Shown here: in pieces, positions 36,575 through 47,920 of the stretch | Position numbering within the stretch: the first letter of the stretch is position 1 | Layout of the letters: every line of letters starts with the position of its first letter | Source: Acidimicrobiales bacterium | GTDB lineage: Bacteria > Actinomycetota > Acidimicrobiia > Acidimicrobiales > Aldehydirespiratoraceae | Assembly: GCA_029263175.1 (NCBI GenBank) | Contig: JAJCXZ010000060.1 | Coordinates: 1-64,000, forward strand | DNA length: 64,000 nucleotides | Direction of reading: 5' to 3' | Position numbers and translations under genes: made by a program | The notes under the pieces: generated by a model | Databases searched by the model: none | The model's input: only the letters and a program-made list of their open reading frames with translations | What the model was told of the DNA's origin: nothing

Positions 36575-36838
36575 ATGACCCAAGGACTCGAAGAACCCGA
36601 CGATCTGGTGCGATCGGTGTGGACAACCGACGAGGTTGTCGGCGCAGAAACGTTCGATGAGGACTGCAGCCCGACTCGCGTTTGTCGCAACGCTCGTGAG
36701 TTCAGCTTCGACGGCATCGCCGCGGAGGGGAGCGACCTTCAGAGTGCGTGGCGCGACACCCTCGCCCGAGAGGGCAAGCTCAGGCCATCATCTGACTCCA
36801 TTCGCGACCTGGTCCTCGGCCAGCCCGCGTCCGACTGA
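36575..36838 (+). CDS. small hypothetical protein of the CO dehydrogenase maturation operon
   Basis: An 87-aa acidic, soluble protein from ATG 36575, with GAGGGAG ahead of it. No transmembrane helix or Cys pair motif; two Cys lie in DEDCSPTRVCRN. The C-terminal half reads like an ordered helical segment (LQSAWRDTLAREGKLRPS). I do not recognise it. Its place between xdhC and coxD, on the same strand, suggests a part in enzyme maturation or regulation. Confidence 0.7.
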   Translation: MTQGLEEPDDLVRSVWTTDEVVGAETFDEDCSPTRVCRNAREFSFDGIAAEGSDLQSAWRDTLAREGKLRPSSDSIRDLVLGQPASD

Positions 36839-37746: not shown

Positions 37747-38872
37747 CGACGTTGGCCTTGTCGAGCGCTTCGTCGAGTTCGGCCATGAACTGCGCGCCGA
37801 GGGCCTCACGATCGGCTCCGGCGACCTCCTCACCTATTGTGCGGCGATCGCAGTGCTCAACCCCGGCGACCTGCAGGACGTCTACTGGGGCGGCCGCACA
37901 ACACTGGTCACCCGCCGCGATCAGATTCCCGTCTACAACCGGGTCTTTCGCCGATTTTTCCTCGGCCATTCCGACACCACCGCCGATGCTGATCCCGAAG
38001 TCGCCGAGGCAGCAGTCGGCACCAGGGCGGTGCTGGAGATTCCGGACTCCGAACCGGGTGACGCCAACGCCGACGACGAGGACGAGACGACGCTGGGGTT
38101 CATGGCTTCCAACGCCGAGATCTGGCGAAACAAGTCCTTCGCAGCATGCACCGCCGAGGAACTCACCGAGCTCCGCCGGATCATGGCGCAGGTCCGTCTC
38201 ACTCCACCGCGCCGACGGAGCCGCCGCCGCCGCCCGAGCACGACAACCGGCCAGCCCGACATGCGGCGAATGGCGCAGCAGGCGATGCGCACAAAGAGTG
38301 ACTCACCCGTCCTGTTGCGATCGAGCAGAAAGATGCGTCCCCGTCCTTTGGTCTTCCTGTTGGATGTGTCGGGTTCGATGTCGGACTATTCGCGCAATCT
38401 CCTGCAGTTCGCGTACTCGACCAAACGCGCCGCCGGACGCGTGGAGGTCTTCTGCTTCGGCACCCGCCTCACGCGAATCACGCGTGAGCTCGACCGTCGC
38501 CGTCCCGACGAAGCCATGAAGCTCGCAGCCACGCGAGTCACGGACTGGGACGGCGGCACCCGAATCGGCAGCGCACTCGATGAGTTCATACGGCGGTTTG
38601 GGCGCCGGGGGATGAGCCGAGGGTCGATCGTGGTCATCTGTTCGGATGGGCTCGATCGCGGCGACCCGGCGACACTCAACCACGCGATGGAACGGCTCGC
38701 GCGCCTCTGCCATCGCATCGTCTGGATGAACCCACACAAAGGCAACGATCTCGACTATCGCCCCAACACCCTCGGCATGATGGTGGCAGCGCCGTTTGTC
38801 GACTCGATCGTCTCGGGTCACAATCTCCAGAGCCTCGGCGAGTTCGCCGAAAGCCTTCCCGAGTGGCGATAG
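37739..38872 (+). CDS. coxE: VWA-domain protein, CoxE-like
   Basis: A 377-aa protein from ATG 37739, starting inside coxD. The N-terminal 170 residues are helical, followed by an arginine-rich stretch (about 160-175). The VWA domain starts PLVFLLDVSGSMSDYS, whose DxSxS forms the MIDAS metal site, with the third ligands in GGTRIG and ICSDGLDRGD. It works with CoxD in active-site maturation. Overlap with coxD means translational coupling. Confidence 0.88.
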   Translation: MTDDVGLVERFVEFGHELRAEGLTIGSGDLLTYCAAIAVLNPGDLQDVYWGGRTTLVTRRDQIPVYNRVFRRFFLGHSDTTADADPEVAEAAVGTRAVLEIPDSEPGDANADDEDETTLGFMASNAEIWRNKSFAACTAEELTELRRIMAQVRLTPPRRRSRRRRPSTTTGQPDMRRMAQQAMRTKSDSPVLLRSSRKMRPRPLVFLLDVSGSMSDYSRNLLQFAYSTKRAAGRVEVFCFGTRLTRITRELDRRRPDEAMKLAATRVTDWDGGTRIGSALDEFIRRFGRRGMSRGSIVVICSDGLDRGDPATLNHAMERLARLCHRIVWMNPHKGNDLDYRPNTLGMMVAAPFVDSIVSGHNLQSLGEFAESLPEWR

Positions 38873-38880
38873 GTGATTCT

Positions 38881-39165
38881 GTGAAGTGGAGCGTCTCGAT
38901 CCAGGCCGAGGGCGACCGAATCCTCGAGATTCAGGAGATCGTCGCGCTCGCAGATGCCGTGGCCACGATGGATGGAATTGCGTCGGGGATCGGCACCATG
39001 ACCTACGGCGCCCAAATCGTGATCGAAGCCGAGTCATCCGATGATGCGGCGAACCTCGCAGTGCCGTTGTTCATCGCCGCAGCCGCAGACGCCAAACTCC
39101 CCGACTGGCCCGTGGTTCGGGCTGAAGTCATTGGCTTCGAAGACGAGTTCGAGTACGACGAGTGA
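38881..39165 (+). CDS. small hypothetical protein of the CO dehydrogenase maturation operon
   Basis: A 94-aa protein. GTG 38881 (VKWSVSIQAEGD) has AGGTGA at good spacing, better than the GTG at 38863, which would overlap coxE. Predicted alternating strands and helices (SVSIQAEGDRILEI, YGAQIVIEAESSDDAA) look like a ferredoxin-like/ACT-sized sensor fold. No Cys. Unrecognised. It is coupled by GTGA overlap to the GIY-YIG-like gene after it. Confidence 0.72.
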   Translation: MKWSVSIQAEGDRILEIQEIVALADAVATMDGIASGIGTMTYGAQIVIEAESSDDAANLAVPLFIAAAADAKLPDWPVVRAEVIGFEDEFEYDE

Positions 39166-39602
39166 TCCGCCTCGGTTCGCTTGCCGGGTACCCCTTCGAG
39201 GGCCCGCGCGTGCTCGCAGGCTGGACCCCGCCGGCGGTCGCCGCCGTCTACGCGATCATGTACCGACCGCAGCCGGAGAAGACCGCTCCTGAGTACGCCG
39301 TGATCTATGTCGATCACTCCGACGACCTCTCGCTCGAGCGGCTCCCGTTCAAACATCCGCGAGCGGCCTGCTGGACCCGACGCGCCGGCGATCGATTCAA
39401 TCTCCGCGTGTGCACCTACGAGGTGCCGGGCGGCATGCGCTCTCACCGCGAGCAGATCGCCCACGAGCTCATCGCGGTCTACAAACCGGGCTGCAACCTG
39501 GAGCAGTTCGACCACGCGTGGAACGATGAATGGATCGGCGCCTACGAGGCACCGACCACCGGGCCGCTCACCACGAATCGAGACCCCTCAGGCGGCAGCT
39601 AA
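39162..39602 (+). CDS. GIY-YIG-like protein at end of CO dehydrogenase maturation operon
   Basis: A 146-aa protein from GTG 39162. The layout VYAIMYRPQ...YAVIYVDHSDDLS, then a Trp/Arg region, then EQIAHELIAVYKPGCN resembles the GIY-YIG nuclease fold: two tyrosine strands, and a Glu on a helix ending in a P-x-CN turn. The usual GIY is changed to VYAI, so activity is uncertain. It overlaps the gene ahead by 4 bp and the convergent 527-aa membrane protein gene by 15 bp. Assignment is by eye only. Confidence 0.6.
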   Translation: MIRLGSLAGYPFEGPRVLAGWTPPAVAAVYAIMYRPQPEKTAPEYAVIYVDHSDDLSLERLPFKHPRAACWTRRAGDRFNLRVCTYEVPGGMRSHREQIAHELIAVYKPGCNLEQFDHAWNDEWIGAYEAPTTGPLTTNRDPSGGS

Positions 39603-41171
39603 TTCTCGGCCGGGGGCCGGGCTCGGCGCGCTGACGCGCGCCAATGTGACCATCGCACCGCCGTAGATGATCACCAGAATCCCGACCAACAGGAGGAGCG
39701 GCGGAAATACATCGACGGGCGGAGCAGTCGTGTCGAGGGTGCGATAGTCATCGGTTACCGCCCGCACTGCCGGCACCACTTCGTCGGCGAAGTAGTCGAC
39801 GACTTCGGGCACTGACCGAACCGGAGTGCCATCGAATCCCGTCAGGTCTTCGGTGCCCGGGACCGCTCGGAAACCATCGGTGACAACGATGAGATTGGTG
39901 ATGGCCTGGGCCAAACGAGGCGTGTTCTCGGCAATCGCGGCCAGAACCGCATCGCCGTCAGCCAGCGCGGAGTTGTCGGCGACGAAGGTCAGCAACCCGG
40001 GGATTTCTGCACTGACTGCGTCGAGCGGCAGCGCCAAGAGGAGATTCAGGGTGTGCGGGAAGTTGGCGGCCAGCGCAGCCACCACTTCGTCGGGGGTGAG
40101 GCCGGTTGCTCCCGCGACGAGCTCCACCAGGGCGCCCACTTCTGCGGCGGCTCCACCCTGCGCGTCGGCGATGGGGTCGGCCATGTCGCCGATGTTGCTG
40201 ACAATGGCGACACCCGCCTCCATGCCGGCGACGCGTTCCTCGACGAACGCCGGACGTAGGTCGTCGATGACTTGTTGCCCGCCATCGAGCCGAGGGAAGA
40301 GTCCGACGGCCAGCACACCGATACTGACAAGAGCGCCGACAACGATCACCACCGACCATCCGAGGGTGTGGACGCCGCGACTGTAGGCATCGGTTCGGGT
40401 GACCGCGAGCATCAGGAGCCCAAAGACCACAACGACGATCCCGATGACGGTCAGGATCGTCGAAATGAAGCCGACCTCCGGCCACGGCTCGTCGAGATCG
40501 CGGAAATCAGGCGCCACATTCTCGACCGCGGTCACCACGTCGGATTCGAAAAGGTCACGTAGCTCAGGCACCGAGTCGACCGTCGTGACGCCGTCGAATC
40601 TCGTCACACCCTCGGTCCCCTCGACATCTCGCCAGTTGGCAGTCACGGGAAGCAGGTTGGTCACGGCCTGGGCGATTTGTGGAGTAGTCGCGGCAATGGC
40701 AGCCAACACCGCGTCCGCGTCGGCCAGTTCTGAGTTGTCAGCCACAAAGGTCAACAAGCCAGGAACCTCCGCGCTGACGTCTTCGAGCGGCAGCGTGAGG
40801 AGCAGATGATAGGTGTGCGGGAAGTTGGCTTCGAGCGCGGCGAGAACGTCAGCGGCAGGCAGGCCCGTTGCGCCCGCAACCAGGTCAACCAGCGAGCCGA
40901 CCTCTCCGGCCGCTCCACCCTCGGCATCGACAATCGGGTCGAGCATGTCGGACACGTTGCCGATCATCGTGATCGCAGGCCGGTCGCCCGCTACCCGTTC
41001 CTCGGTGAACGCCGGTCGGGCGCCGTCGAGCACGGCTTGGCCGGCGTCGAGGCGGCCCGAGAGTTCGAGTCCCCACACGATCAGCAACACCACCGCGCCG
41101 GCGACGACCACCACCAGCCAGGCGAGTGAGTTGGCGTTTCGCACCGCCGGTGAGGACCGACCGCCACTCAT
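39588..41171 (-). CDS. 527-aa membrane protein made of two homologous halves, cox-linked
   Basis: Four transmembrane helices at about 15-36, 230-252, 268-290 and 485-508 border two extracytoplasmic domains. The domains are clear duplicates: ARPAFTEERVAG/LRPAFVEERVAG, DLVAGATGLPAADVLAAL/ELVAGATGLTPDEVVAAL, NFPHTYHLLLTLPL/NFPHTLNLLLALPL and VPGLLTFVADNSELAD/IPGLLTFVADNSALAD. No heme, Cys or metal motif. It is the last gene of the coxG-linked string, overlapping the gene before it by 4 bp. I do not recognise the family. Confidence 0.8.
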   Translation of the reverse strand: MSGGRSSPAVRNANSLAWLVVVVAGAVVLLIVWGLELSGRLDAGQAVLDGARPAFTEERVAGDRPAITMIGNVSDMLDPIVDAEGGAAGEVGSLVDLVAGATGLPAADVLAALEANFPHTYHLLLTLPLEDVSAEVPGLLTFVADNSELADADAVLAAIAATTPQIAQAVTNLLPVTANWRDVEGTEGVTRFDGVTTVDSVPELRDLFESDVVTAVENVAPDFRDLDEPWPEVGFISTILTVIGIVVVVFGLLMLAVTRTDAYSRGVHTLGWSVVIVVGALVSIGVLAVGLFPRLDGGQQVIDDLRPAFVEERVAGMEAGVAIVSNIGDMADPIADAQGGAAAEVGALVELVAGATGLTPDEVVAALAANFPHTLNLLLALPLDAVSAEIPGLLTFVADNSALADGDAVLAAIAENTPRLAQAITNLIVVTDGFRAVPGTEDLTGFDGTPVRSVPEVVDYFADEVVPAVRAVTDDYRTLDTTAPPVDVFPPLLLLVGILVIIYGGAMVTLARVSAPSPAPGRELAAA

Positions 41172-41536
41172 GACGTGCCGCCCGGCGTATAGCCGACCGC
41201 TTCTGCCAGACGGGTACGGCGCCGTTTCATGGCCGGCGTGGCCGGTGGCCGTTCGGTATCAGGGTCGGGCTCGTAGGTCGCACCAACGATGATCCCCTCG
41301 GCCATGCCATAGAGCAGCGGCAGCGCGCCGGCGATCACCCTGCCGGTGTTGTTGATCCGCTCGACGCCGGATTCGATCGGCTCCGCGTTTCGCTTGATGG
41401 CCCAGACCACTTCTGCGCTGCTTTCCAACTTCGTGGCGATGCGAGTGAGCTGCGACCCGACGATGTAGAGGTAGATGGCGAGCTCGGCGATGAGCAGTGC
41501 GATCGCAAGCACGGTCAGCACGACCAAGAGCGTCAT
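41168..41536 (-). CDS. small single-TM protein of cox-linked membrane array (fifth)
   Basis: A 122-aa protein. One N-terminal transmembrane helix (about 3-27, LLVVLTVLAIALLIAELAIY) is followed by an amphipathic helical region (RIATKLESSAEVVWAIKRNA) and a basic tail. It begins with AAGGTG at good spacing and overlaps its neighbours by 4 bp on both sides. No known domain. It shares layout with the four preceding small proteins. Confidence 0.75.
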   Translation of the reverse strand: MTLLVVLTVLAIALLIAELAIYLYIVGSQLTRIATKLESSAEVVWAIKRNAEPIESGVERINNTGRVIAGALPLLYGMAEGIIVGATYEPDPDTERPPATPAMKRRRTRLAEAVGYTPGGTS

Positions 41537-41823
41537 GATCGCACCTTGTCCAGAACTCGGCCGAGGAAGAGATGGTGCTCCAGGCCTTCAGCCAGCACCC
41601 CGTCAACGCGGTCACCGGTTTCCGCGATCAACGCCGTATCCGAGGTGTTCGCCTCGGCTTGGTCAAGCGTTGCTCCGATGAGGTCGACGCGCTCCTCGAT
41701 CGTCCTCACCAGGATCACCAGGATGGTCAAGAACGCGGCAACGGCAACCAGAACGATCAGTCCCAGTCCAAGCGTGACCCACCAAAGGCTCTCTTGCGTC
41801 GGGGTCAGGGCCAGTAGATTCAT
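41533..41823 (-). CDS. small single-TM protein of cox-linked membrane array (fourth)
   Basis: A 96-aa protein from ATG 41821-41823, with GGAGG six bases upstream. One transmembrane helix (about 15-40, VTLGLGLIVLVAVAAFLTIL), then a helical coiled-coil-like region rich in Glu, Asp and Leu (VRTIEERVDLIGATLDQAEA) and ending in LEHHLFLGRVLDKVRS. No known domain; the two adjacent His are the only unusual residues. Confidence 0.75.
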   Translation of the reverse strand: MNLLALTPTQESLWWVTLGLGLIVLVAVAAFLTILVILVRTIEERVDLIGATLDQAEANTSDTALIAETGDRVDGVLAEGLEHHLFLGRVLDKVRS

Positions 41824-41825
41824 CG

Positions 41826-42086
41826 TCAGCCTCCAAGCCGGCTACGACCGCGAGCGAGCCCAGCGACAATCGCTTCGGCCGCCTCGTTCGTGACATTGAG
41901 TTCGTTCAGTGCTGCGGTGTTGTCGACCGATTTCAGCAGGGATTCGTTGATGGCTGCGGCCTGGGTGGCGATTCGGTGGGCCAGGAGCAAGATCGGCACA
42001 ACCAGGGCCACTACGGCGAACACGACCGCAAGGCCGATGGACCAGCCGATCGTCCAGCCGGCAGTCGATGCGAGAAGGGCAGACAT
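41826..42086 (-). CDS. small single-TM protein of cox-linked membrane array (third)
   Basis: An 86-aa protein. ATG 42086 is chosen over GTG 42092 because AAGGA lies seven bases ahead of it, while it would be too close to the GTG. One transmembrane helix (about 9-34, WTIGWSIGLAVVFAVVALVV), then an amphipathic helix (HRIATQAAAINESLLKSVDN) and a short basic tail. Two bases separate it from the next gene. No known domain. Confidence 0.75.
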   Translation of the reverse strand: MSALLASTAGWTIGWSIGLAVVFAVVALVVPILLLAHRIATQAAAINESLLKSVDNTAALNELNVTNEAAEAIVAGLARGRSRLGG

Positions 42087-42101
42087 ATTCACGTCCTTTG
42101 A

Positions 42102-42329
42102 TCAGACCGTGTCGCAGAACTCGCGGACGGGCCGCAAGCTCTCGTTCACGGACGGGACTACAGATGGGACAGTGCTCGTCTTGTCCGCCACCGCTTCGAC
42201 TCCGCCGAAGACGCTGCCCAATGTTTTCTGGACGGCGAACAAGTGAAGGATCACCCGCGTCAGACCGAGGGCCGCCGTCGCGATGATCAGCCCTGCGATA
42301 ACGACAGTGAACCATGCAGCAGTTTCCAT
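42102..42329 (-). CDS. small single-TM protein of cox-linked membrane array (second)
   Basis: A 75-aa protein. The start has GAGGAGAAG about ten bases ahead. One transmembrane helix (about 5-30, AWFTVVIAGLIIATAALGLT), then a soluble helical tail with several Val-Pro-Ser steps (STVPSVVPSVNESLRPV) and one Cys near the end. No known domain. Nine to fourteen bases separate it from its neighbours. Confidence 0.72.
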   Translation of the reverse strand: METAAWFTVVIAGLIIATAALGLTRVILHLFAVQKTLGSVFGGVEAVADKTSTVPSVVPSVNESLRPVREFCDTV

Positions 42330-42343
42330 GAGTGTTCTTCTCC

Positions 42344-42592
42344 TCAGTCCAGAAGTTTTCCGACAGAGCCGGCGTAGCGAACAGCGCCATCCGCCACCTC
42401 GGCGATCACGCGGTCGGTGGTGGCCAACAGTTCGGGCGTGGTGTCCAACTCACCGACCAAAGCGACGCCACCAGCCAAGATGTCGTCTGCCGCGGCACGA
42501 ATCCGTTCCAGCGCCGCCAGCACCCGGTTCAGGAGCGCGATGAGGATCGGAATCACCGCCACCACGAGAATCACGTTTCCAAGCATCCACAT
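42344..42592 (-). CDS. small single-TM protein of cox-linked membrane array (first)
   Basis: An 82-aa protein that begins 14 bases after coxG with GGAGG ahead of its ATG. One transmembrane helix (about 3-25, MLGNVILVVAVIPILIALLN), then a continuous amphipathic helix (RVLAALERIRAAADDILAGG) and an acidic/hydrophobic tail. It resembles DUF948-sized single-pass proteins in layout only. Position straight after coxG ties the array to CO dehydrogenase. Confidence 0.75.
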   Translation of the reverse strand: MWMLGNVILVVAVIPILIALLNRVLAALERIRAAADDILAGGVALVGELDTTPELLATTDRVIAEVADGAVRYAGSVGKLLD

Positions 42593-42606: not shown

Positions 42607-43191
42607 TCAGCCGGTTGCGGGTCGGTAGGGCAGGAAGAAACGGCGGAACACCCGAGCGAGCGCCATTCTGAGCGCTCGTAGTCCGATGACGAATCCGCTC
42701 GCCGGCTTCACAACCGCGACTTGGCTTGGGTCGAGCCCCGCTCGCACGGCCGTGAGCCTGTTCTGCAAGTTCGTGGCGAAGTCGTCCAGCAGCACCGACG
42801 TGACATCGGCGATCATGCCCCGCCCGTATTGCGCTGCCGCGCCGGAAAGCTGCAGGTCGAGATCGACGGCGACGTTTGTGCCTTTGGCAGTGGCGGCGAG
42901 GCTTGCGTTGAGTTGGAGCGCTGCTTGTCCTCGACCCTTCTTGTCGGCGCCGGCTGCGTCGACAACGATCGTCTTGTCGTCATCGCGACGTTCGAGAATG
43001 TCGGCCGTGCCATCGAATTCGAGCTTGACGGGGCCAAGGGCGATCACGACCGTGCCCTTGTAGCTGTCATCGTCGACCTTGTCGGTCAGCTCTGCGCCGG
43101 GCAGGCACGCCGCCACTTGCGGAATGTCGCCGAAGAACTCCCACACCGCCTCAACGGACTCGGACACCTCGAATTCGTTCTTGATCATCAT
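42607..43191 (-). CDS. coxG: CoxG, SRPBCC-family CO dehydrogenase membrane/quinone partner
   Basis: A 194-aa protein. Residues 1-145 are the CoxG/SRPBCC helix-grip domain (VSESVEAVWEFFGDIPQVAACLPGAEL is typical; LQLSGAAAQYGRGMIADV near its end). The C-terminal tail (GLRALRMALARVFRRFFLPYR) is a basic amphipathic helix suited to membrane anchoring. In mycobacteria CoxG has been reported to tether CO dehydrogenase to the membrane and carry menaquinone. Its ATG overlaps the XdhC-YHS stop as ATGA. Confidence 0.88.
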   Translation of the reverse strand: MMIKNEFEVSESVEAVWEFFGDIPQVAACLPGAELTDKVDDDSYKGTVVIALGPVKLEFDGTADILERRDDDKTIVVDAAGADKKGRGQAALQLNASLAATAKGTNVAVDLDLQLSGAAAQYGRGMIADVTSVLLDDFATNLQNRLTAVRAGLDPSQVAVVKPASGFVIGLRALRMALARVFRRFFLPYRPATG

Positions 43192-44135
43192 GGGTTGTCA
43201 CCTGCGAGTCGTGACTCGGCTTCTCGTTCGAACTGATTCCTGCACCCGACGCAGCAGAAATGATGGGTGACCGCGCCGACAACGAGCGGGTGACTCGTGT
43301 CGTCGGCAGTGACCGCCATTCCGCAAACCGGGTCGATCGCCTCGGCGACCGGTGCGGTGCGTGGCAGGTGTGTCCCTCTGAGCCCGCCCGCCGCACGGAG
43401 GGCGACAAGCTCGGCGAGCACCGCCACGGCGACCTCACGATGCGGCGTTGGCCCGAGATCGAGTCCGACCGGCACGCGAATGGCATCGAGCGGCTCGGCC
43501 GCGTGACCCCGATCGGCGAGATAGCCGCGTAGAGCCTCGCCTCGCCGAGTTGACGCAACGACGCCGATGTAGGTCGGTGCAACCGCAAGAGCCGTCTCCA
43601 ACACGTCCTCGTCGCCGTGGCCCTGCGTCGCGACGATGACCGCCGAGTGGGCGGCAATGGAAGCTGTGGTGAAGTCGCTGCTGTCGACGAGTTCGGCTTC
43701 CCAATCGAGATCGAGGGCCAGGCGACACAATGTGTGCGCCATCGGAGACCGACCGACGATGACCAGGTGAGGAACGGGGATGACGGGTTCGATGAAGATC
43801 TGCATGGCACCTTCGCTCTGACAGGAGATCGCAATCGCGGTCATGCCCTGAGGCACGTCGCCGAACTGGTCCGAGGCTCCAAGGGCCAGTAAGTGCGACT
43901 CGCCTCTTTCCAGGGCCCGATGAGCCTCACGTATGAGCACCGGCTCGGCGCACGCACCGCCGATCCATCCGATGACGTCACCCTCACGAGTGACGATTGC
44001 CCGCGAGCCGTGCTGGCTCGAGGATGGCCCCTCGCGCCACACCACGGTGGCCATCGCAAAAGTTTCGCCGCGGCGCGCCAGGTCAACGGCGTGCTGGAGC
44101 ACGCCCCACCCGTCGAGCGATGCGCCGTCGGTCAT
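43188..44135 (-). CDS. XdhC-family protein with C-terminal YHS domain
   Basis: A 315-aa protein. Residues 1-265 are XdhC-like: ATVVWREGPSSSQHGSRAIV and GWIGGACAEPVLIREA at the front, then a Rossmann half (HLVIVGRSPMAHTL) and GLDLGPTPHREVAVAVLAEL. The C-terminal 45 residues form a YHS metal-binding domain (DPVCGMAVTADD...HHFCCVGC). YHS domains are often copper or heavy-metal linked, and CO dehydrogenase needs copper, so delivery or sensing of copper is a fair guess. It is coupled to coxL by ATGA overlap. Confidence 0.82.
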   Translation of the reverse strand: MTDGASLDGWGVLQHAVDLARRGETFAMATVVWREGPSSSQHGSRAIVTREGDVIGWIGGACAEPVLIREAHRALERGESHLLALGASDQFGDVPQGMTAIAISCQSEGAMQIFIEPVIPVPHLVIVGRSPMAHTLCRLALDLDWEAELVDSSDFTTASIAAHSAVIVATQGHGDEDVLETALAVAPTYIGVVASTRRGEALRGYLADRGHAAEPLDAIRVPVGLDLGPTPHREVAVAVLAELVALRAAGGLRGTHLPRTAPVAEAIDPVCGMAVTADDTSHPLVVGAVTHHFCCVGCRNQFEREAESRLAGDNP

Positions 44136-46513
44136 GCGTCGGTCCGGATCGGGGGTGCCCCCGAGACATCGCGGCCCTCGGTCAGCCCTTCGTACACACG
44201 GTCGGGGAGGAGGGGCATGTCGATGTTGCGGACACCCGCGCCCTGCAACGCATCCATCACCGCGTTGACGAACGCGGCCGGGCCGCCGACGGTTGCGCAC
44301 TCGCCGATGCCCTTGGCGCCGATCGGATGATGCGGACACGGCGTGACCACTTCGTGGAGCTCGAATCCGGGGGTCTCCCATGCCGTCGGCAGGAGGTAGT
44401 CCATGTAGTTCGAACCGACACAGTTGCCTTCGCTGTCGAAGGTGATGAATTGCATGCTGGCCATGGCGTAGGCCTCGGTGAGACCACCCATGATCTGACC
44501 CTCGACGATCATCGGGTTGATCCGCACCCCGCAGTCGTCGACAGCCACCATGTTGAGCACGTCCCAGACTCCGGTGAGGGGATCGATCTCGACGGTGGCG
44601 ATGTAACAGGCGAACGGCCAGGTGAGGTTCGGCGGGTCGTAGTATGCGTTGTTCTCGAGGCCCGGCTCCATCCCGTCGGGGATGTTGCTGTAGGCCGCGT
44701 TGGCGCATTCCTGAATCGTTACCCCGAGATCGGGAGCGCTGCGAACAAAGAACCGGCCGAGCTCCCACTCGACGTCTTCCTCGGACACCTCGAGTAGATG
44801 GGCCGCGATCTTCCTGGCCTTGGCGCGGATCTTGCGCGACACCATGGAGACGGCGGCGCCGGCCACCGGGGTACTGCGAGATGCGTAGGTGCCCATACCA
44901 AACGGGGCTGTGTCGGTGTCGCCCTCTTCGACCACGATGTCTTCGGCCGGAATCCCCAGCTCATGGGCGACGATCTGTGCCCACGTGGTCTCGTGGCCTT
45001 GGCCCTGACTCTTCGCTCCTGTGCGCAAGATGGCCTTGCCGGTCATGTGAACCCGCAGTTCGGCGGAGTCGAACATCTTGATGCCGAGGATGTCGTACTC
45101 GCGGCTGTTGCCGGCACCCAGGGGTTCGGTCATCGTCGAGATACCGATGCCGAGGAGGCGTCCGTTCTTCTTCGCCTCCTCCTTCTGCTTCAAGAAGTCC
45201 TCGTAGCCGATCGCTTCGAGACCCATCTCCAAGCACTTCCCGTATTGACCGGAGTCGGTGAGGAAGCCGAATGGCGTGCGGTGCGGGAAGTCGTCGTCAC
45301 GAACGAAGTTGAGCCGGCGAATCTCGGCCTGATCGATTCCGAGGTCGTCGGCCGCCGCCTGCACCATTCGTTCCTGGAAGAACATGGCTTCCGTGACGCG
45401 GAACGAGCAGCGATAGGCCACGCCTCCAGGCGCCTTGTTCGTATAGAAGCCCCGCGACGTGAGGTGTGCGGTCGGCACGTCGTAGCAGGCGAATGCTGAG
45501 TGCATCAGGCCGATCTTGAACTTGCTCGGCTGCGCATCGGAGAAGAACGCGCCGTGATCAGACTCCGTCTGCATACGAACGCCGAGGATCTTGCCGTCCT
45601 TGCGAAGTGCCAACTGGCCTTTCAAGTACACGTCTCGGCCAAAGCCGGTGGAGATCAGATTGCCAGTCTTGTCTTCAATCCACTTGACGGGGCGTTCGAG
45701 CAGAATGCTCGCCAGGATCGACACGACGTAGCCGGGGTAGACAGGGACCTTGTTGCCGAAGCCGCCGCCGAGATCCGGGGAAACGATCCGGATCATGTGT
45801 TCGGGCAGCTCGGCCACCAATGCCACGGCGGCCCGGATGATGTGGGGTGCCTGGGTGGTCATGTAGACGGTGAGCTTCGAGGTGGACCGATCGAAGTCGG
45901 CGATTGAACCGCAGGTCTCGATTGGTGACGGGTGCGACCTCGGATAGTGGAGCTCGAGCTCAGAGACGACGTCGGCGGCTGCGAACGCCCGGTCGGTGCC
46001 GTCCTTGTCTCCTACATCCCAGTCGAAGATGACGTTGTCCGGTTGGTTCTCCTTGTCGTCACGAATGACGGGTGCGCCTGCAGCCATGGCCTGCGTGGGG
46101 TTGACGATCGCAGGCAGCGGCTCGTAGTCGACGATGATGGCTTCGCACGCGTCCTTGGCGATATAGGGATCATCGGCGATCACCGCCGCGACCTCTTGAC
46201 CCTGGAACCGCACCTTGTCGGTGGCGAGCACCGCCTGGGTGTCGTAGGAAAGCGTTGGCATCCAGGCAAGGTTGCGGGCCGCCATCATCTCGCCGGTGAG
46301 AACGAGCCTGACCCCAGGAATCGCCCAGGCCGCAGTCACGTCGATCGACTTGATCCGGGCGTGCGCGAGCGGGCTCCGCACGATCTCCATGTGCAGCATG
46401 CCGGGCAGGACGATGTCGTCGACGTAGTTGCCTGCACCCCGGATGAACCGGTTGTCTTCCACACGGCGACGACTCGCCCCGAGTCCGCCGATCTTGATCT
46501 CGTCGATGGTCAT
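44132..46513 (-). CDS. coxL: aerobic carbon monoxide dehydrogenase, large (molybdenum) subunit, form I
   Basis: A 793-aa subunit that binds molybdopterin cytosine dinucleotide and the Mo-S-Cu site and oxidises CO to CO2. The form I signature AYRCSFR is present with the copper-ligand Cys at 369, which separates true CO dehydrogenases from form II relatives. The MPT-binding GGGFGNK and the C-terminal GAKGIGECATVGG (catalytic Glu) are intact. The start is ATG 46513, overlapping coxS by ATGA. It works as a dimer of CoxLMS trimers. Confidence 0.96.
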   Translation of the reverse strand: MTIDEIKIGGLGASRRRVEDNRFIRGAGNYVDDIVLPGMLHMEIVRSPLAHARIKSIDVTAAWAIPGVRLVLTGEMMAARNLAWMPTLSYDTQAVLATDKVRFQGQEVAAVIADDPYIAKDACEAIIVDYEPLPAIVNPTQAMAAGAPVIRDDKENQPDNVIFDWDVGDKDGTDRAFAAADVVSELELHYPRSHPSPIETCGSIADFDRSTSKLTVYMTTQAPHIIRAAVALVAELPEHMIRIVSPDLGGGFGNKVPVYPGYVVSILASILLERPVKWIEDKTGNLISTGFGRDVYLKGQLALRKDGKILGVRMQTESDHGAFFSDAQPSKFKIGLMHSAFACYDVPTAHLTSRGFYTNKAPGGVAYRCSFRVTEAMFFQERMVQAAADDLGIDQAEIRRLNFVRDDDFPHRTPFGFLTDSGQYGKCLEMGLEAIGYEDFLKQKEEAKKNGRLLGIGISTMTEPLGAGNSREYDILGIKMFDSAELRVHMTGKAILRTGAKSQGQGHETTWAQIVAHELGIPAEDIVVEEGDTDTAPFGMGTYASRSTPVAGAAVSMVSRKIRAKARKIAAHLLEVSEEDVEWELGRFFVRSAPDLGVTIQECANAAYSNIPDGMEPGLENNAYYDPPNLTWPFACYIATVEIDPLTGVWDVLNMVAVDDCGVRINPMIVEGQIMGGLTEAYAMASMQFITFDSEGNCVGSNYMDYLLPTAWETPGFELHEVVTPCPHHPIGAKGIGECATVGGPAAFVNAVMDALQGAGVRNIDMPLLPDRVYEGLTEGRDVSGAPPIRTDA

Positions 46514-47043
46514 GATGCCCCGTTCTGTTCGCGGAGCTTGGCTGCAGCCCCGAGCACCGCCTTCACGATGTTTTGATACCCGGTGCAGCGACAGAGATTG
46601 CCCGACAGCGCCCACCGGACCTCGTCTTCTGTGGGGTCGGGGTTTTCATCGAGCAGCGCCTTCGCCGTGAGCATCATGCCGGGGGTGCAAAAACCGCACT
46701 GCAAGCCATGCTCATCCTTGAATCCCTCTTGGACAGGATGAAGCTCGCTCGCCGATGCGAGCCCCTCCACGGTGGTGACCTCGTGGCCGTTGGCCTGTAC
46801 CGCGAGCACCGTGCAACTCTTGGCGGGGACCCCATCAAACAACACGGTGCAGGCGCCGCAGTTGGTTGTGTCGCAGCCAGTGTGGGTGCCCGTGAGCTTG
46901 AAGCCCTGCCGAATCAAGTGCGCCAGCAACAACCGTGGCTCGACGTCCACCGTTCTCTTGTTGCCGTTGATGCCTACCGTGATCCGCTTGACGGCGACCT
47001 CGTTGGCCGCTTCGGGAGTGACCTCCGAGAACAAACTCGTCAT
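46510..47043 (-). CDS. coxS: carbon monoxide dehydrogenase, small (iron-sulfur) subunit
   Basis: A 177-aa subunit. The plant-type [2Fe-2S] ligands are [17 protein letters not shown] with a fourth Cys in KSCTVL; the second cluster has [10 protein letters not shown] and [10 protein letters not shown]. It has a 20-residue N-terminal extension, and the start ATG 47043 has AGGAGG nine bases upstream. One base separates it from the coxM stop. It passes electrons from CoxL to the FAD of CoxM. Confidence 0.96.
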
Positions 47044-47044
47044 G

Positions 47045-47920
47045 TCATGCCACCTCCTGGGTGGAGAGCTGCAGGCTGGTGAGGATCCGACTGACGAACG
47101 TCGCAACGATGTGCCGCTTGTACGACTCGCTTCCCCGATGATCAGATCTCGGCCGTGAGGCCGCGGCAGCCAACTCGGCGGCGGCCGCGATGTCCGTCTC
47201 GCTCAGCGAACCACCGACGAGCGCGGCGGCTGCCTCAGCCGCATTGATCGTCGAGCTGCCGACGCCGGTGAGACCAATTCCGGCGCGGGCGACGGAGCTT
47301 CCGGAGAACTCGACCGAAACAGCCACGCCGGCCGTGGCGAAGTCACCGACGCGTCGTTCGAGTTTCAGATATCCACCGGCCCGAACTCCGACGGGAGCGG
47401 GCACAACCGCTTCGACGGCCAGTTCGTCGCTGGCGAGAACCGTCTGGAACGGCCCGCTCACGAAGTCGGCGACAGCGACCGACCGAACTCCGGTCGGCCC
47501 CTTCGCCACAACCGAAGCGCCGAGGCTGATCATCACCGATGCCCAATCACCCTGCGGATCGGCGTGGCAGATTGATCCGACGAGCGTGCCTCGATTGCGC
47601 ACGATCGGGTCGGCCACAGTGTGTGCCGCGGCCGCCATTGTCGGCTGGCTCGCCGCGAGGTCCGGCGACTTCTCGAGCTGAGCGTGTCGGCAGAGCGCAC
47701 CGATCCGATAGGTGCCATCGGAGTCGGCTCTGTGGTAGTCCAGGCCAGGGATGTTGTTGATGTCGATCAACGTGCCGGGTGAGGCGAACCGGAGCTTCAT
47801 CATGGGGAGCAGGCTCTGACCACCTGCCAAGACCTTGGCTTCGCCCTGCCCACGGCGAAGCAGCTCAATTGCCTCCTCGACCGTGTCGGGCGCTTCATAG
47901 CTGAATCGTGACGGGTACAT
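47045..47920 (-). CDS. coxM: carbon monoxide dehydrogenase, medium (FAD) subunit
   Basis: A 291-aa flavoprotein of the PCMH-type/CO dehydrogenase flavoprotein family. The FAD-binding signature AGGQSLLPMMKLRF is at residues 32-45, followed by NRGTLVGSICHADPQGD. It takes electrons from CoxS and hands them on, probably to quinone through CoxG. Order coxM-coxS-coxL is the normal one. It is preceded 24 bp upstream by an 81-aa gene on the same strand. Confidence 0.95.
   Translation of the reverse strand: MYPSRFSYEAPDTVEEAIELLRRGQGEAKVLAGGQSLLPMMKLRFASPGTLIDINNIPGLDYHRADSDGTYRIGALCRHAQLEKSPDLAASQPTMAAAAHTVADPIVRNRGTLVGSICHADPQGDWASVMISLGASVVAKGPTGVRSVAVADFVSGPFQTVLASDELAVEAVVPAPVGVRAGGYLKLERRVGDFATAGVAVSVEFSGSSVARAGIGLTGVGSSTINAAEAAAALVGGSLSETDIAAAAELAAAASRPRSDHRGSESYKRHIVATFVSRILTSLQLSTQEVA

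Follow-up and report, generated by a model that had tools for sequence, protein, structure and literature searches.

Homologous sets of five small membrane proteins encoded beside CO dehydrogenase and [NiFe]-hydrogenase genes of Actinomycetota

What is the role of a string of small membrane-protein genes placed directly behind a carbon monoxide dehydrogenase (CODH) operon? The question is raised by a 64,000-nucleotide stretch of an Acidimicrobiales genome (contig JAJCXZ010000060.1, positions 1 to 64,000; the window hereafter), in which coxG is followed on the minus strand by five genes for short proteins, named s1 to s5 here, and by a sixth, named big, for a longer membrane protein. The intergenic distances from coxG through s1, s2, s3, s4 and s5 to big are 14, 14, 9, 2, -4 and -4 bp, and all of the open reading frames (ORFs) are present as described in a first-pass annotation of the sequence, which saw no recognisable domain in the five short products and proposed that the six form a membrane complex docking CODH or passing on its electrons or quinone. 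None of the six has a match above the Pfam or NCBIfam cut-offs. The membrane genes near coxMSL in Oligotropha, coxB, coxC, coxH and coxK, encode large multi-pass or sensor proteins, and nothing similar to these is found for s1-s5 or big by Pfam or NCBIfam.

Biological removal of CO and H2 from the atmosphere is due mainly to CODHs and high-affinity hydrogenases. The route by which electrons from these cytosolic enzymes reach the respiratory chain is recognised as a gap in knowledge (PMC6794299, PMC6883350), one that a shared membrane module would fit; the CODH of M. smegmatis is mainly cytosolic and its electron input step has been called unclear (PMC6794299), and no gene for a membrane anchor was seen in either the huc or the hhy operon (PMC6883350). 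Judged from profile homology, the array in the window is a CODH-linked variant of a known, uncharacterised set of hydrogenase-linked proteins, HylTM, and the proposal of a CODH-docking complex is partly supported, being right in direction but too narrow.

The array beside CO dehydrogenase genes

The five small genes are s1 (42344-42592, 82 amino acids (aa)), s2 (42102-42329, 75 aa), s3 (41826-42092, 88 aa, or 86 if an internal ATG is used), s4 (41533-41823, 96 aa), which is the most recognisable member and served as the search probe, and s5 (41168-41536, 122 aa). They are not chance ORFs, because all five keep their order after coxG in relatives, at ~50-85% identity. Two genomes of the same genus keep the whole array (74% identity for big, 76-81% for s1-s5), genome G078 has the same array after coxG with a fragment of big on a separate contig, and coxG is followed by s1-s5, without big, in nine more cox loci of the class that are complete or nearly so and whose coxL is at least 85% identical. 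A profile rescue search recovered all five s genes in 30 of the 30 cox loci included in a tree of the arrays. The linkage to CODH noticed at the outset is thus borne out for the coxL clade of the window, in which s1-s5 follow coxG in every intact locus examined; none of the five was found at seven array-less form I coxL loci looked at, whose coxL is 62-66% identical.

Co-occurrence was counted in a class-level sample, the same 395 genomes being searched for coxL, for the hydrogenase described below, and for s4, with thresholds of at least 75% identity for array-clade coxL (16 genomes) and at least 55% for the hydrogenase clade (12 genomes). An s4 gene is present in 27 of the 28 genomes that have either partner and in 2 of the 367 others. 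In G256, the lone partner genome without s4, the contig breaks off immediately downstream of s1, and the two genomes with s4 and no partner, G343 and G395, look like locus remnants. Other form I-like coxL genes occur in 65 genomes, four of which have s4, and all four of these also have the hydrogenase. Fisher tests, which ignore shared ancestry, give p values of 2e-38 (s4 against the partner enzymes) and 7e-12. Other form I coxL loci examined are without the array. As to the remnants themselves, G343 retains an intact coxG-s1-s5 run beside a shortened coxL, and G395 retains s4, s5 and a partial s3 with the partner genes absent (the two remnant sites are L207, 6167-6484, and L206, 8462-9286).

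Each of the five proteins has one N-terminal transmembrane (TM) segment, as first described, with a second, moderately hydrophobic stretch near residue 67 of s5. Across 46-61 homologues per family, positive charges average 0.02-0.33 ahead of the TM segment and 2.1-3.4 behind it; this asymmetry predicts an N-out/C-in topology with tails of 50-80 residues, which should therefore be cytoplasmic, on the side of the membrane where CODH is. The remark that the small proteins have little similarity to one another is only in part correct: by profile comparison two pairs, s3/s4 (E value of 3e-7 within the window) and s2/s5, are paralogues. We saw no conserved charged residues of the kind that would mark an ion path when the TM segments of s1-s5 were inspected. 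A search of s4 against PDB chains gave a best E value of 0.33, to unrelated proteins, and a resemblance of s4 to ATP-synthase b (E 0.0044) falls below the cut-off and was read as shared helix composition. Additional single-TM proteins of ~200-260 aa (one of 323 aa) are encoded near arrays at L123, L173, L175, L177, L185 and L194; several have s-like N-termini and match none of the Pfam families scanned, and it is possible that they are extended versions of s proteins.

Homologues at [NiFe]-hydrogenase loci

CODH is not the only partner of the array. In an unselected sample of the phylum s4 is present in 41 of 376 genomes, and of the 34 phylum-wide array loci that were fetched, 23 adjoin [NiFe]-hydrogenase genes and 7 adjoin coxL/coxG, 30 in all, the remaining 4 being next to neither. 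Homologues are thus widespread without coxL, an outcome that the first-pass annotation had named as refuting its proposal; we read it instead as widening the proposal to a module shared by two enzyme types. No hydrogenase of the array-bearing clade was found in the genome from which the window derives.

The relationship is supported by profiles built from CODH-linked proteins only (22-23 sequences each), which were run on 728 proteins of hydrogenase loci and match the small TM proteins there one-to-one, with E values of 1e-20 to 1e-6. Chance similarity of hydrophobic segments is ruled out by reversed sequences (best E 0.008) and by 23 control loci, including array-less cox and hydrogenase loci, to which raw small TM ORFs had been added (best E 0.012). 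An example is presented by G022, a relative outside the genus, in which s1 and s2 adjoin genes for a CooC-type ATPase and hypF, and divergent s3-s5 lie beside the gene for a [NiFe]-hydrogenase small subunit; the nearest solved relative of this hydrogenase is the C. necator enzyme 5aa5. Loci of this type contain adjacent small- and large-subunit genes together with genes for a HycI protease, a NifU-type protein, a tetratricopeptide repeat (TPR) protein, a BirA-like protein, CooC and a small DUF1059-like protein, a content that matches group 1m, the label being given by gene content and not by HydDB. Published group 1m clusters are described with two small TM proteins of 82-92 aa (PMC9561532). 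At the loci seen here s1 and s2 likewise stand beside the DUF1059-like, CooC-type, TPR and BirA-like genes (L033/L034, L132, L140-L142), but s3-s5 are present too, split off beside the small subunit gene, so that two, the published number, is too low for these loci.

The profiles of CODH-linked proteins also match genes of L189, L190, L192, L195 and L200, with E values of 1e-13 to 1e-6, and combined profiles place all five families in order at loci fitting the gene order of group 1l. In these the s genes sit between the genes for the hydrogenase structural subunits, in the order s3-s4-s5-s1-s2, and the loci match published group 1l with its HylTM1-5 genes, again by gene content and not by HydDB. 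HylTM1-5 are five short single-TM proteins of group 1l [NiFe]-hydrogenases, as recounted in PMC9561532, which credits an earlier study. The products of s1-s5 are likewise five short proteins with one predicted TM segment each, and are homologous to this set by profile. The window differs in that its genes follow coxG in the order s1-s2-s3-s4-s5, are not interposed between hydrogenase small and large subunit genes, and include both a C-terminal s5 motif found at CODH only and an additional duplicated membrane protein. To our knowledge no biochemical role has been assigned to any HylTM protein. In the open literature searched, subscription papers being outside the search, no paper linking HylTM-type genes to CO dehydrogenase was found.

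The classic group 1h plasmid operons (M. intracellulare, C. necator pHG1, Kitasatospora) have no small TM genes among their annotated genes, in a gene table that is incomplete, and a profile search that took in every called ORF and the raw small TM ORFs of these operons detected no s1-s5.

The tree built from s1-s5 joined end to end requires only two changes between CODH and hydrogenase partners, and the CODH copies nest among hydrogenase copies under a midpoint root, the root itself not being inferred. With only two partner changes, the module appears to move between enzymes rarely but intact. The blocks s1-s2 and s3-s4-s5 hold their inner order but swap places between loci. Divergence between the two systems is unevenly distributed along the proteins: in comparisons of CODH with hydrogenase copies the TM part retains 0.63-0.78 of the within-group identity and the tail 0.42-0.58. 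A further difference is in s5, which at CODH loci measures 118-125 aa in each of the 21 clade-mates listed; in all of these its C-terminus has a conserved arginine-rich stretch and a VGY-type motif (of the type PA[MS]..RR[ST]R..(x)VGY.P). At hydrogenase loci s5 is mostly 83-110 aa and mostly without this motif.

A candidate membrane platform for trace-gas enzymes

From homology, gene order, strict co-occurrence with two enzyme types, sequence-based topology and paralogy within the set, we infer that s1-s5 assemble into one complex, that this complex docks the enzyme, and that it may take some part in quinone transfer. The explanation that we favor, and consider somewhat likely, is that s1-s5 form a single heteromeric membrane platform on which a cytosolic trace-gas oxidoreductase docks at the inner membrane face and gains access to menaquinone. 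Co-evolved, paralogous, single-span N-out/C-in proteins would make up the platform; their cytoplasmic helical tails would hold form I Mo-CO dehydrogenase and CoxG at the inner face of the membrane, and the docked enzyme would hand its electrons to menaquinone. The same platform, which would include the products of the HylTM1-5 genes of group 1l, would serve unrelated high-affinity [NiFe]-hydrogenases, with big added as an optional partner in one subclade, its two helical domains probably facing outward. The TM helices would be the common part, and the tails, together with the s5 C-terminus, the part fitted to each enzyme; a module whose gene order and tails track the enzyme in this way allows the two parts to be separated. 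The membrane complex first envisaged for CODH fits the predicted topology and the phylogenetic pattern, and was drawn too narrowly in being confined to one of the two enzyme types. The array would also be a sequence marker that divides form I coxL loci into those with the putative platform and those without it.

Several observations weigh against the platform. The classic group 1h hydrogenases work without an array, as do the majority of form I CODHs (the seven array-less loci looked at among them), so that it is not needed for CO or H2 chemistry as such; at L172, L174 and L180, s3-s5 adjoin a gene for a DsbH-type protein and no oxidoreductase was recognised; and the sole structure model covers big alone and is poor (pLDDT 59). 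An assembly or maturation platform, with s1-s5 recruiting the enzyme to the membrane only during cofactor insertion and having no part in electron transfer, would account for the genes that adjoin the array at hydrogenase loci (hypC, hypF, CooC-/CbiA-type ATPases, HycI protease and NifU-type protein) and for xdhC, coxD and coxE near it at cox loci. We nevertheless think it improbable: the Mo-Cu pyranopterin and Ni-Fe cofactors are unrelated, close relatives of both enzymes mature without an array, and the 1l-like loci place the array genes between two structural subunits.

CoxG bears on a further alternative, in which the five TM helices, bundled together, would draw menaquinone out of the bilayer and deliver it to the enzyme, with CoxG at CODHs and without it at hydrogenases. 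CoxG is membrane-associated in other systems (PMC6794299, PMC11962113), anchors a different enzyme to the membrane in an archaeon (PMC11962113), and, according to Kropp 2025 (cited in PMC13240472), acts for CODH as a menaquinone-binding protein. It is encoded beside the array; described as the membrane anchor and menaquinone carrier of CODH, it has a soluble START-like fold unrelated in sequence to s1-s5, and at the array-bearing hydrogenase loci no homologue of it was seen. This absence, and the conservation of the TM parts above all others across enzymes, speak for a conduit; that quinone-site residues cannot be named, and that CODH elsewhere manages by CoxG alone, leave it in our view about as improbable as a maturation role. 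Very improbable is an ion-translocating or regulatory module that is merely co-expressed with trace-gas enzymes. A weak s1-s5-like set precedes an Mrp/MbhD-MbhE-type antiporter gene in one genome (L197), but this is a single, long-branched case, the small proteins have no conserved charged residues inside the membrane on inspection, and arrays are found almost exclusively with the two enzyme types. We offer tentatively a wider generalization: the platform would be a general, exchangeable five-TM quinone-access adaptor of Actinomycetota that has accepted unrelated cytosolic enzymes (Mo-CODH and [NiFe]-hydrogenases of several groups) in turn, with the tails remodelled for each and with big traded between the CODH and hydrogenase versions.

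The duplicated membrane protein and neighboring genes

The gene big (39588-41171) encodes a protein of 527 aa which, as first described, is a duplicated membrane protein, a tandem repeat of a unit consisting of a TM segment, a ~190-aa helical domain and another TM segment; its two halves, residues 11-262 and 265-516, share 56% identity over 252 aa, and there are four TM segments in all. By charge, the termini and middle loop are probably inside and the two helical domains outside. A scan of 84,980 prokaryote species genomes yielded 17 loci, nearly all from metagenome-assembled Acidimicrobiia or Actinomycetota, with two labelled Acidobacteria and Poseidoniales; every one of the annotated loci adjoins coxMSL or [NiFe]-hydrogenase genes. 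No relatives were found in a scan of viral contigs. Most array-bearing loci of the class are without big, which rules it out as a core member of the array: it is an optional add-on in one subclade and not, as originally supposed, a fixed part of a CODH complex. An AlphaFold2 model of big is of low confidence (pLDDT 59, pTM 0.45) and has no Foldseek match in the PDB below E 0.06, and likeness to a known fold was dropped as evidence.

CODH- and hydrogenase-linked versions of big are 61-77% similar, roughly the level seen among the CODH versions (71-78%), and s1-s5 diverge far more between the two systems than big does. This contrast hints that big was later exchanged between them, in a unit tree that is weakly supported. 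In G022 two contigs (L008 1-141 and the end of L009) break off within big and overlap exactly by 141 bp; the overlap is suggestive of an exact internal repeat and thus of a recent or homogenised duplication. Proteins of ~325-355 aa at L036, L037, L038 and L039 have four TM segments, with the TM-domain-TM arrangement occurring twice, and show weak similarity (E 1e-4 to 3e-5) to big in its TM region; they are not near cox or hydrogenase genes.

Upstream of the array, the minus-strand run begins with coxM (47045-47920), for the medium (FAD) subunit, identified by the order coxM-coxS-coxL-xdhC-coxG-s1..s5 that is conserved in homologous loci. It continues with coxS (46510-47043), for the small (2Fe-2S) subunit, also conserved in order and 72-83% identical across array loci, and coxL (44132-46513), for the large subunit, which is form I by TIGR02416 (1091 bits, cut-off 991) and by the AYRCSFR motif in its translation. 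A gene for an XdhC-family maturation factor (43188-44135) is conserved between coxL and coxG; a longer ORF in its frame, 43188-44768, has sub-threshold matches to NF045664 (E 4.1e-29) and TIGR02964 (E 5.6e-8). The product of coxG (42607-43191) matches PF06240 with 62.4 bits (gathering cut-off 22.2; E 4.9e-17).

We note some further arrangements of array genes. L172, L174 and L180 have s3-s4-s5 without s1-s2, adjoining a gene for a protein of ~1,600 aa that over its first 600 residues matches a DsbH-type thioredoxin protein (7tkv); in L174 a penicillin amidase follows. The set in L197 (8014-9300) consists of five small TM genes in canonical order, with weak matches to s1-s5 (E 1e-4 to 6e-6), and directly precedes the antiporter gene, which is large. 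Finally, three small soluble ORFs lie on the plus strand of the window near coxD/coxE, at 36575-36838 (87 aa), 38863-39165 (100 aa) and 39162-39602 (146 aa), the latter two products being without a Pfam family. None of the three was seen at array-less coxL loci, and they recur in most array-type cox loci, including some outside the class (L169, L170).

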